DNA of 36,953 bases from Akkermansiaceae bacterium (GTDB lineage: Bacteria > Verrucomicrobiota > Verrucomicrobiia > Verrucomicrobiales > Akkermansiaceae): positions 1-36,953 of the forward strand of contig CANLKN010000031.1 of the NCBI GenBank assembly GCA_947491475.1. Direction: 5' to 3'. Both the position numbers and the translations under genes were made by a program. Each line of letters begins with the position of its first letter. Positions within the stretch are counted from its first letter, which is position 1. The notes beneath the pieces are model-generated. The model was not told the DNA's origin. It worked only from the letters and a program-made list of their open reading frames with translations, and searched no databases. Positions 1 to 2,619 of this stretch are shown here, one piece after another.

Positions 1-134
1 TGTTGGGGCACTTCGAGGATGTTGGACATGCTCCCCGATCCAAGCACTTTGGCAGCGCCCTGAGGGAAGCGGTTTTACATCCGCAAGTGGTGCACTTTGA
101 ATTCTAACAAGTGATTATCAGGTGGTGCACTTTG
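1..134. mobile_element. Presumed end of an insertion sequence abutting a truncated restriction gene
   Basis: No intact gene is visible here. A short open frame on the plus strand runs from the window edge to a TAA at 105-107 and matches nothing I recognise. The stretch contains an exact 13-base direct repeat (87-99 and 122-134) and shorter related words at 8-13 and 44-51. Homology to EcoRV in the next gene begins abruptly at about 140, immediately after the second repeat copy. Several copies of a terminal word next to a sharp breakpoint resemble the multiple terminal repeats of IS21-family elements. Assignment to that family is inference, because no transposase is in view. Confidence 0.35.
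87..134. repeat. Direct repeat GTGGTGCACTTTG, two copies
   Basis: GTGGTGCACTTTG occurs identically at 87-99 and 122-134, with starts 35 bases apart. The core GCACTTTG also occurs at 44-51 and GCACTT at 8-13, 36 bases earlier. The last copy lies exactly at the point where EcoRV homology starts, so the repeat probably belongs to the inserted element and not to the restriction gene. Confidence 0.6.
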
Positions 135-135
135 G

Positions 136-792
136 GTGATCGCCGACAACAGGTCCAACCCCAGAATCAAGTTTGCGGTAGATCTCAAGACGAGCTACCG
201 CGACCCCGATTTCCCCGGGCATGTCAACGGATTCACTCTTGGTAGCCACGGAGCTTATTTTAAGGAGCGAACCTCGACGAAAAACATTCAATTCCCATAC
301 TCAGACTACAGCGGACACTATTGCTTGGGGGTGATCTATACGCGAATTCTATCCGAAGAACTCGATGAGACCCGCGCCTATGCAGTCAAGGAGTTGGGCC
401 ATATTGAAGAAGGGGCACCTTATGTTGGTCCAGAAATCCTAGTTCCAAGCCTTCGATCAATTACATCCGTAGTACGGGATTTCGAGTTCTTTGTTTGCGA
501 GAAGTGGCAAATCGCCAGTGACAGGCAAGGTTCGGGTAACACGGCAAACATCGGAGCAATCACTTGGATTGAAGACATCCGCCTCTGTCGGTGAGTGTTC
601 TCAAAACTCGGCGAAAAGTGGTTCGATGAATATTGGATGAACCATGGTAGTGCCACCATGCTTCTTGATGATAAGCCAATGCCGATCAAGAGGCTTTGTG
701 ATTTTATGGATTTCAAAGGAGCTGAAAAATCTAAAATTGTTCCGGTGCGCACTAAAACAAAACCCCGCAAAACGAAACCACAATGCGAGTAA
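136..792 (+). pseudogene. EcoRV-family type II restriction endonuclease, N-truncated and with a nonsense codon
   Basis: The product resembles EcoRV, a PD-(D/E)XK endonuclease that cuts GATATC, from about residue 80 of EcoRV to its end. The catalytic pair of the second half-motif is visible as VDLK (Asp16 and Lys18 counted from 136). The region TKNI..P...Y..H...G.IYTR is kept. The DNA-recognition loop GSGNTAN is at nt 529-549, against GSGNTTN in EcoRV. The tail W.DEYW is kept as well. Two lesions are seen. About 80 N-terminal residues, including the first catalytic aspartate (Asp74 of EcoRV), are gone. A TGA at 592-594 also interrupts the same reading frame, which then continues open to 792. 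The gene overlaps the methyltransferase start by 10 bases, the expected layout of an R-M operon. The GTG at 136 is not a natural start. Either lesion alone should inactivate the enzyme. Confidence 0.85.
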
Positions 793-1703
793 TCACACCG
801 CCTCTGAAGAGCCAGGGCATCAAAACCAAGTTGGTGCCTTGGATCAATTTGCTCAAACCGGATTTCAAAGGACGCTGGATCGAACCATTTCTTGGCACGG
901 GTGTTGTGGCACTCAATTCGGGAAGTCGAAATGCACTACTAGGCGACATCAATCCACATATCATCCGCCTCTACCAAGCGATCCAGTCGGGGGAAATCAC
1001 ACCAGGTATTGCACGACAGTTTCTCGAATTGGAAGGGGCTGAGCTTAGAGCGGCAGATGAAAATGGTTACGTCCATTTTCGCACTATTCGGGATCGTTTC
1101 AACACCCACTTTGCTCCATTGGATCTACTCTTCCTATCGCGGGCTGGCTTCAATGGAATGATGCGCTTCAACCGCAAGGGCGCTTGGAATATTCCATTTT
1201 GCAAAAAACCCGAGCGGTTTGCCCGAGCTTATATAACAAAAATTGTCAACCAAGTGGAGGACGCGGCCAAGGTAATCCAGCCTGATTGGGAGTTTATTCA
1301 TGCTGATTTTGAGAAAATCATCAAGATGGCCGGTCCCGATGATTTGATTTATTGTGACCCTCCTTACCTTGGCCGCCATGTGGATTATTTCAATAGCTGG
1401 ACCGAATACGATGAGGAGCGCTTGTTCACTCTCCTGTCGGCGACACCTGCTCGCTTCATTCTCTCAACTTGGCACCACAACGATTATCGGACAAATCTGA
1501 CGCTTGAACAGTATTGGAACCGCTTCAACATCGTCACTCGCGAGCACTTTTACCATACCGGCGGCAAATTGGAAAATCGCAGGGAGGTAGTCGAAGCATT
1601 AGTATTCAATTTCGAAGCATCCATGCCCGTGCATACTCTTCGCAATGCTGAAAAACAGGAACAATACGAATTGTTCGCCGCAAATGCGAAAAAGGCGGTT
1701 TAA
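783..1703 (+). CDS. M.EcoRV-like adenine-N6 DNA methyltransferase (Dam family), orphaned
   Basis: This 306-residue protein closely resembles M.EcoRV, which methylates the first adenine of GATATC. The N-terminal KSQGIKTKLVPW segment is followed by the SAM-binding motif EPFLGTG (residues 34-40). The catalytic motif DPPY (192-195) is followed by LGRHVDYFNSW, nearly as in M.EcoRV, and later by STWHHNDYR and EHFYH. This motif order is that of alpha-class, Dam-like enzymes. Length is normal for the family (about 300) and no lesion is visible, so it is probably active. The ATG at 783 lies inside the last codons of the endonuclease remnant, giving coupled translation in the ancestral operon. With the nuclease broken it should act as a solitary methyltransferase. 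GATATC specificity is inferred from resemblance only. Confidence 0.92.
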   Translation: MRVITPPLKSQGIKTKLVPWINLLKPDFKGRWIEPFLGTGVVALNSGSRNALLGDINPHIIRLYQAIQSGEITPGIARQFLELEGAELRAADENGYVHFRTIRDRFNTHFAPLDLLFLSRAGFNGMMRFNRKGAWNIPFCKKPERFARAYITKIVNQVEDAAKVIQPDWEFIHADFEKIIKMAGPDDLIYCDPPYLGRHVDYFNSWTEYDEERLFTLLSATPARFILSTWHHNDYRTNLTLEQYWNRFNIVTREHFYHTGGKLENRREVVEALVFNFEASMPVHTLRNAEKQEQYELFAANAKKAV

Positions 1704-1734: not shown

Positions 1735-2619
1735 TTTGCTCCCGCTATAACAAATCCCACCTGCTTCGAACCTTTCCCATTCCCCACCCTCGAAGAATCC
1801 CCGCTCAAGCAGAGCATCCGCGATCTCGGCGAGCGTTTGGACGCGCACCGCAAGCGCCAGCAGGAGTTGCATCCCGGCCTCACGCTCACAGGCATGTATA
1901 ACGTCCTCGAAAAACTCCGCAGCGGAGAACCACTCACCGCCAAGGAAAAGCAAATCCACGACCAAGGCCTCGTCACCCTGCTCAAGCAGATCCACGACGA
2001 GCTCGATGAAGCCGTCTTTGAAGCCTATGGCTGGCAGGATCTGTCCGCCAATGCATCGCACTGTAGCGTCGGTCTGCGACCTTCGCTGGCGAATGAACCA
2101 GCGCCTTCGCTCTCTTCCAATGGCAACGACGGTCATAGACCGCCGCTACAAGCATCTCATTCGTCCGACGCTCACAGAGCGCCGCTACAAGCCACCCCAG
2201 TCGCCTTTTCCAATCTCAGCATTTCAGCTTCTCAGCATTTCAGCATTTATCCCGACGCCCTCCTCACCCGCCTCGTCGCCCTCAACCACGCCCGTGCCGC
2301 CGAGGAAAAGCGCTGCCTCATCCGCTGGCTGCGCCCGGAATATCAGAATCCAAACGCCGCCGCATCCCAACCCATCCAAGCCACGCTAGCAGGCACCGAA
2401 GCATCTTCTTCACATCCACAATCCACGATCCACGATCCACAATCTCCGGATTGGCCTTCCAAGCTCCCCGCCCAAGTCACCCTCATCCGCCAACTCCTCG
2501 CCCAAAACCTCACTGCCACCCCAGAACAACTCTCCGCCCGCTTCGGCCGCAAGAACGCCAAACGCACCGAGCAGATCGAGGGGATCATCGAGACGTTAAG
2601 GGGGCTGGGGCAGGTGTAA
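1735..2619 (+). pseudogene. C-terminal fragment of a large MmeI/Eco57I-like DNA methyltransferase
   Basis: Beginning at about 1750 (NPTCFEPFPFP) the frame matches the C-terminal part of large class I SAM-dependent DNA methyltransferases of the MmeI/YeeA type. The typical run includes IRDLGERLDAHRKRQQELHP, TLTGMYNVLEKLRSGEPLTA, KEK.IHDQGLV, then LLTRLVALNHARAAEEKR and IRWLRPEYQNP. The catalytic NPPY half and everything upstream is absent, and the frame simply runs back into the preceding methyltransferase gene with no start of its own. Three low-complexity insertions interrupt the conserved text without breaking the frame: TGTAGCG-type repeats (2062-2190), TCAGCATTTC repeats (about 2215-2250) and CCACAATCCACGATCC repeats (about 2410-2445). 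It is best read as a relic of a second modification system joined to the first by deletion or insertion. Confidence 0.7.
2062..2190. repeat. Three copies of a TGTAGCG mini-hairpin repeat
   Basis: Related 20-25 base units lie at 2062-2081 (plus orientation, TGTAGCGTCGGTCTGCGACC) and in reverse orientation at 2127-2151 and 2166-2190 (ending CGCCGCTACAA). Each unit contains a short palindrome: GGTC-TGC-GACC, GGTC-ATA-GACC and GCTC-ACA-GAGC. The third copy has changed both arms in step, so pairing is kept. The units sit in frame inside the methyltransferase relic and encode a low-complexity linker. This looks like a dispersed bacterial interspersed repeat. Confidence 0.75.

Follow-up and report, generated by a model that had tools for sequence, protein, structure and literature searches.

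An EcoRV-type cassette with a broken endonuclease gene and a whole methyltransferase gene inside the remains of a Type IIG gene of an Akkermansiaceae bacterium

In the EcoRV system of E. coli plasmid pLG13 (NC_005019), the endonuclease gene (R) and the methyltransferase gene (M) diverge around a gene for a helix-turn-helix regulator. The catalytic residues of EcoRV are D74, D90 and K92, and its recognition loops have also been described (PMC4081073). Restriction-modification (R-M) systems are known to enter and move between genomic sites: a PabI-family system substituted 62 bp of resident DNA (PMC4615327), and R-M movement has been linked to insertion sequences (ISs; PMC3031569). In Halobacteria, members of Type II methylase families are reported to outnumber those of nuclease families, which has been read as decay through loss of R (PMC6471742).

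The window analyzed here is the whole 36,953-nucleotide contig C31 of a metagenome-type draft genome (G000; 3,892,403 bp in 182 contigs, completeness 96.63%). Coordinates without a prefix refer to the window, and those prefixed C85 to another contig of the same genome. An EcoRV-type system is genuinely present at this locus; it has decayed recently, and its M gene is whole (Table 1). The original prediction of an EcoRV-family pair is borne out by Pfam, in which the R fragment at 136–591 matches PF09233 (177.4 bits, E 4.5e-52) and M matches PF02086 (127.4 bits, E 1e-36); M also matches the PADLOC Type II MTase model with 376.1 bits. Alignment to EcoRV and M.EcoRV gave 83/244 identical residues for R (34%) and 151/290 for M (52.1%). 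Among solved structures, R matches 8 distinct sequences of R.EcoRV, with a best E of 4.6e-16, and M matches DpnII-type and Dam methylases. These similarities exceed chance by a wide margin.

Like its plasmid counterpart, R has the PD...DxK catalytic residues: the positions of E45, D74, D90 and K92 are all conserved across its two pieces, E45 being a further catalytic residue of EcoRV. The recognition loop GSGNTxN is also kept, in the form GSGNTAN that had been noticed from the window. The locus is unlike the plasmid system in that R and M are tandem and overlapping, the T187 position is Ala, and R is broken. A nearer relative is L059 (Verrucomicrobia MAG LacPavin, JAPLUI010000025.1), with the same gene order, the same 10-nt overlap, and an M that is 91% identical to ours. 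In contrast to our locus, the R of L059 is intact in one open frame, there is no IS, and the cassette adjoins a 3' fragment of a Type III Res gene (E 4.4e-24) and lies outside any Type IIG gene. At L059 1110–1490 and 1717–2649 we observed a short M-like fragment upstream of the cassette and the adjoining Type III Res 3' piece. Among the best 80 of 220 loci found with M as query, the three nearest relatives of M all come from Verrucomicrobia MAGs. This makes the verrucomicrobial host proposed earlier plausible, but it falls short of proof since R-M genes move.

Table 1. Features of the cassette and its surroundings; coordinates are those of the window unless prefixed C85
Feature	Coordinates	Strand	Basis or remark
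IS21-family right end, contig break within element	1–148		identical to ends of C112, C95, C10; 2–148 to C46
Right copy of 5-bp target duplication ACAGG	149–153		left copy C85:149–153
R codons 1–95	C85:433–149	minus	in-frame join to C31 part
EcoRV-type endonuclease (R), part 3' of IS up to nonsense codon	149–591	+	PF09233; in-frame join
In-frame TGA	592–594	+	codon is glycine in 8/8 aligned relatives
R C-terminal piece after TGA	595–792	+	PF09233 positions 199–240, E 4e-06, 26.9 bits
EcoRV-type (D12, Dam family) adenine methyltransferase (M), 306 aa, intact	783–1703	+	PF02086, TIGR00571; M.EcoRV identity 52.1%
MmeI-like Type IIG C-terminal remnant	1741–2619	+	PDLC03627 positions 908–1126, E 3.6e-67; DNA alignment to relatives
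REP-like repeats inside IIG remnant	2062–2189		three of 52 genome matches
Type IIG N-terminal remnant	C85 about 1658–507	minus	PDLC03627 4–235 and 242–371; Pfam MmeI_N, MmeI_hel

The Type IIG gene around the cassette

The cassette is flanked by N- and C-terminal remnants of an MmeI-like Type IIG enzyme (PDLC03627), a position overlooked in the original prediction. Downstream of M, the stretch 1711–2619 matches profile positions 908–1126 in PADLOC, and the N-terminal remnant lies on C85. Unlike in MmeI-like enzymes themselves, the core is gone: positions 372–907 are missing with the cassette in their place, and no one gene at the locus unites the N-terminal, methyltransferase and C-terminal parts. 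The N-terminal remnant also carries an in-frame TAG (G000:C85:888–890, minus strand) at a codon that is Gln in three relatives.

We aligned the DNA of 13 IIG loci, 12 from other genomes and one the open paralogue of the same genome (G000:C145; 1433.9 bits to PDLC03627 over 4–1126 of 1136). Homology ends at C85:503–508 in 9/13 loci and resumes at 1741–1774 of the window in 7/13; five of the others stop earlier at a contig end, and L046 resumes at 1848. In the six loci that span the gap, the end and resumption points are 1.78–1.83 kb apart. The L059 cassette is homologous to our locus between C85:483 and 1679 of the window. Because IIG homology stops and resumes around it in relatives, the cassette stands where a IIG core of about 1.8 kb was. 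As in the PabI-family case (PMC4615327), an R-M cassette has replaced resident DNA, which here was the core of another restriction gene. Among the literature records listed in our searches, which did not include REBASE, none described this locus or an EcoRV cassette lying within a IIG gene.

Two further features lie in this neighborhood. A REP-like sequence, CGGTCNNNGACCGCCGCTACA, has 52 matches in the genome (at most 2 mismatches) versus 3 for the reversed pattern, with copies in the open IIG remnant of the window and, at G000:C145:6669 and 6926, in the open IIG paralogue. A Uma2-family gene (PF05685) is encoded near the N-terminal remnant at G000:C85:2322–2978, minus strand.

A related arrangement occurs in L060 (Verrucomicrobiota), where the cassette lies between two short pieces of the same IIG family covering profile positions 304–350 (E 1.7e-08) and 618–647 (E 1.2e-05). 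The left boundaries are similar, the L060 piece ending at 350 and ours at 371 (ours resumes at 908). We compared 96 loci (6, plus the best 80 of 220 found with M, plus 10 viral; L034 and L067 are probably one contig) with six IIG proteins. Matches came only from L060, on both sides, and weakly from L092, in a large ORF downstream of M; a third cassette between IIG pieces was not found among the 96. A PADLOC search of one ORF per side in 10 of the 80 loci found an R-M gene in 1/10 left flanks (that of L070, where the contig end truncates it) and in 0/10 right flanks. The other defense-labeled matches were PDC-S62 left of L065 and CARF right of L067, and the left flank of L067 matched a model named for a desaturase. 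At 2/96 loci matched and with so few R-M neighbors, residence in IIG genes is not supported as a general rule for these cassettes. Our locus and L060 are suggestive of a pattern of nesting, as two cases and not a rule. That EcoRV-type cassettes of this lineage can enter by replacing MmeI-like IIG cores (R-M upon R-M invasion), perhaps shuttled between IIG genes by recombination in their conserved arms, is an idea that we consider unlikely.

The insertion sequence and the nonsense codon in R

A profile search of the assembly found three PF09233 stretches only: positions 2–80 on C85:122–358 (minus strand, at the contig end), and 70–155 and 150–239 on C31. Together these make up one gene and cover the profile over its whole length. 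When C85 and C31 are joined and one ACAGG copy is dropped, a single frame of 307 codons results, whose sole internal stop is the TGA; across the junction the joined R reads ...NWYPDLSFVNRSNPRIKFAVDLK... With the start of R at C85:433, the IS sits after codon 95. The GTG at 136 that had been proposed as the start falls within the IS end, and true R sequence begins at 149.

Bases 1–148 of the window are a repeat, as they are identical to the ends of several other contigs (Table 1). The 148-bp left end on C85 likewise terminates C137, and a 99% copy lies within C141. The C85 and C31 repeats, TGTCACCGATCA... and ...GTGATCGCCGACA, form the two inverted termini of a single element, which runs TGTCACC...CCGACA and is flanked on both sides by ACAGG; TGT...ACA ends with a short target duplication are typical of IS21. 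Pairing three left with five right ends, we observed a target duplication in 2/15 combinations, C85–C31 (ACAGG, 5 bp) and C137–C95 (GTTTTG, 6 bp). The element is assigned to the IS21 family because a complete relative in G402:C55 (2,793 bp; end identities of 98% on the right and 94% on the left) carries both istA, with its rve-domain transposase, and istB (IstB, E 1.7e-66). The interior of our element was not found in the assembly, where a PF01695 search gave only C3 and C18, neither adjoining these IS ends; this is as expected, because repeats break contigs.

R is split by this element, given that its N-terminus adjoins the left terminus of that IS, the 5-bp duplication is shared and the frame is continuous. 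The link from C85 through the IS to C31 is a probable one, drawn not from reads but from the shared duplication, the continuous frame and the presence of a single PF09233 gene. ISs act at R-M loci here as in the case of IS-linked movement (PMC3031569), with the difference that our IS breaks R and does not move the system.

The in-frame TGA seen in the original prediction is present as well. In all eight relatives compared (L059, L060, L061, L062, L065, L068, L070 and L071, picked from the best 80 of 220 loci found with M), the site is a GGN glycine codon. Two codons before it, a Gly that is otherwise invariant in the relatives has become Cys. Between them, the IS after codon 95 and the TGA leave no unbroken R gene, and with two killing lesions R, judged by its sequence, gives no enzyme. 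Reading of the TGA as a sense codon would not restore R, which the IS interrupts as well.

The methyltransferase gene and the age of the loss of R

M had been described as free of lesions and is indeed a whole reading frame, encoding a D12 protein of full length in which the FxGxG and DPPY motifs are present. From its 52.1% identity to M.EcoRV, the target is likely GATATC. Its start overlaps the stop of R by 10 nt, and the distance from R stop to M start is -26 to +5 nt in 36/37 loci measured among the best 80 of 220, with M starts taken from the M-query matches. Since the two lie so close, translational coupling of R and M is likely. Our M departs from the eight relatives in none of the 151 columns that are invariant among them, against 0 to 6 such departures in the eight controls.

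Several comparisons bear on when R was lost. Against L059, dN is 0.131 for R and 0.053 for M, and synonymous sites approach saturation (pS 0.665 and 0.761); in the L059–L060 pair, by contrast, dN is 0.150 for R and 0.183 for M. Polarized by L060 and L061, 16 changes in R fall on our side and 13 on the L059 side (binomial p 0.71), against 3 and 6 in M. We see no acceleration of either gene on our side, and the excess of R over M is spread evenly on both sides. An old decay marked by fast evolution of R was considered and rejected: of 137 columns invariant in the eight relatives, our R differs in 4, the TGA included, and the eight controls differ in 1 to 9 of 134–142.

Long residence of a cutter generally leads to avoidance of its site. 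Our count covered 436,953 bp of the 3,892,403-bp genome and gave 87 GATATC sites versus 88.4 expected (rank 53 of 64 palindromes), which shows no avoidance. On these counts, an EcoRV-type cutter was probably not a long-term resident. Avoidance is detectable in this genome, because other palindromes such as GTCGAC are strongly avoided: 3 GTCGAC sites were observed versus 107.2 expected in the same sample, about 36-fold rarer. Loci of the same genus, 59 kb in all, are likewise poor in GTCGAC (1 observed versus 16.2 expected), and this rarity suggests a long-standing SalI-like specificity in the genus.

With no excess of amino-acid change and no avoidance of GATATC, the loss of R looks recent relative to the split from L059. 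The unbroken M is therefore no proof that M is maintained or active. Because the decay is recent relative to that split, the conservation of M mostly predates the loss of R and does not demonstrate later selection.

We consider it very probable that a IIG core was swapped for an R-M cassette whose R was then recently killed. In this sequence of events, a tandem cassette (R then M, overlapping) would have replaced the methyltransferase and target-recognition core, about 1.8 kb, of an MmeI-like IIG gene. Later, and recently, an IS21-family element would have inserted after codon 95 of R, which a nonsense codon at 592–594 would also have killed. M, left whole, would if expressed methylate adenine at GATATC sites that no partner endonuclease any longer cuts, an orphan through loss of R; the sole PF09233 gene in the assembly is the broken one, and no functional cognate R accompanies M. 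The gene anatomy, the two lesions, the ACAGG duplication, the family assignment and the core replacement are established here; the target specificity, the production of M and the sequence of events are inferred. The orphan status proposed earlier agrees with a broken R and a whole M, but "a clear case" was too strong, since R was lost recently and M may be poorly expressed.

The whole cassette may instead be dead or dying, with the IS and TGA halting transcription or translation before M, which would be unexpressed and have yet to collect lesions of its own. We regard this as a serious possibility, somewhat short of an even chance. Both lesions precede M, whose start falls within the last codons of R, so its expression may be reduced; the spacing in 36/37 loci, which makes coupling likely, points the same way. 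A consensus scan of 1–2700 found no sigma-70-like site on the + strand, although such scans miss other types of promoter, and IS ends can carry promoters. Against a silent M, a GTG directly follows the TGA (595–597) and could, from its position, restart translation into the R/M overlap. The recent loss of R means that an unbroken M is expected either way.

Loss of R with M retained

Loss of R with M kept is a common fate among related loci, as R is broken or undetected in 20/75 assessable loci among the best 80 of 220. The 80 loci comprise 55 with R in a single open frame, 13 with a broken R, 7 where R went undetected and 5 where a contig end cuts it or hides it. An R was called intact if one frame ran from model position 15 or less to at least 265, the model having been built from 62 R frames that cover most of the same 80 loci. 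With M as query, whole M genes are favored and broken ones under-sampled, and frameshifts in drafts may be false; the 20/75 is thus an observation and not a test of asymmetry. A search starting from R found it in 7/387 genomes of the phylum, in pieces in 3/7, our genome included. Single in-frame stops occur in the related R genes of L073 (TAG), L074 (TAA), L077 (TGA) and L088 (TGA); the stops of L073 and L074 are only a few codons apart.

It is unlikely, in our judgment, that M is an active GATATC methylase selected after the loss of R, whether for regulation or for protection against incoming EcoRV-type systems. M is unbroken with conserved motifs and the tally of 20/75 is compatible with such selection, but that tally favors whole M genes by design, and R was lost too recently for later selection to be read. 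We give still less credence to an effect of assembly or strain mixture, in which part of the population would carry an uninterrupted R and the TGA or IS would be a minority variant or consensus artifact. The genome is a metagenome-type draft in 182 contigs, analyzed here from contigs rather than reads; however, the IS ends, the target duplication, the clean frame, the nearby Gly to Cys change and the lack of a second PF09233 copy in the assembly all speak against it. Scarcely credible is the original prediction that a deletion removed the first 80 or so residues of R, including Asp74: the window by itself shows no N-terminus because C31 ends inside the IS, which led to a misreading of the cause, and the N-terminus with Glu45 and Asp74 sits on C85 beside the other IS end, with the target duplication. 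When a gene seems cut short at a contig end, a break within an IS ought to be looked for before a deletion is proposed.

In the very probable account of a core swap followed by recent loss of R, the less usual feature is that the cassette took over the site of a IIG core; each kind of event is already known, and the combination is instructive. The locus catches successive inactivations of defense genes early, namely the IIG core swap, the IS and the nonsense codons, while its modification gene remains whole. With 20/75 assessable loci lacking an intact R, this lineage is well suited for asking whether solitary methylases are selected or merely slower to decay.
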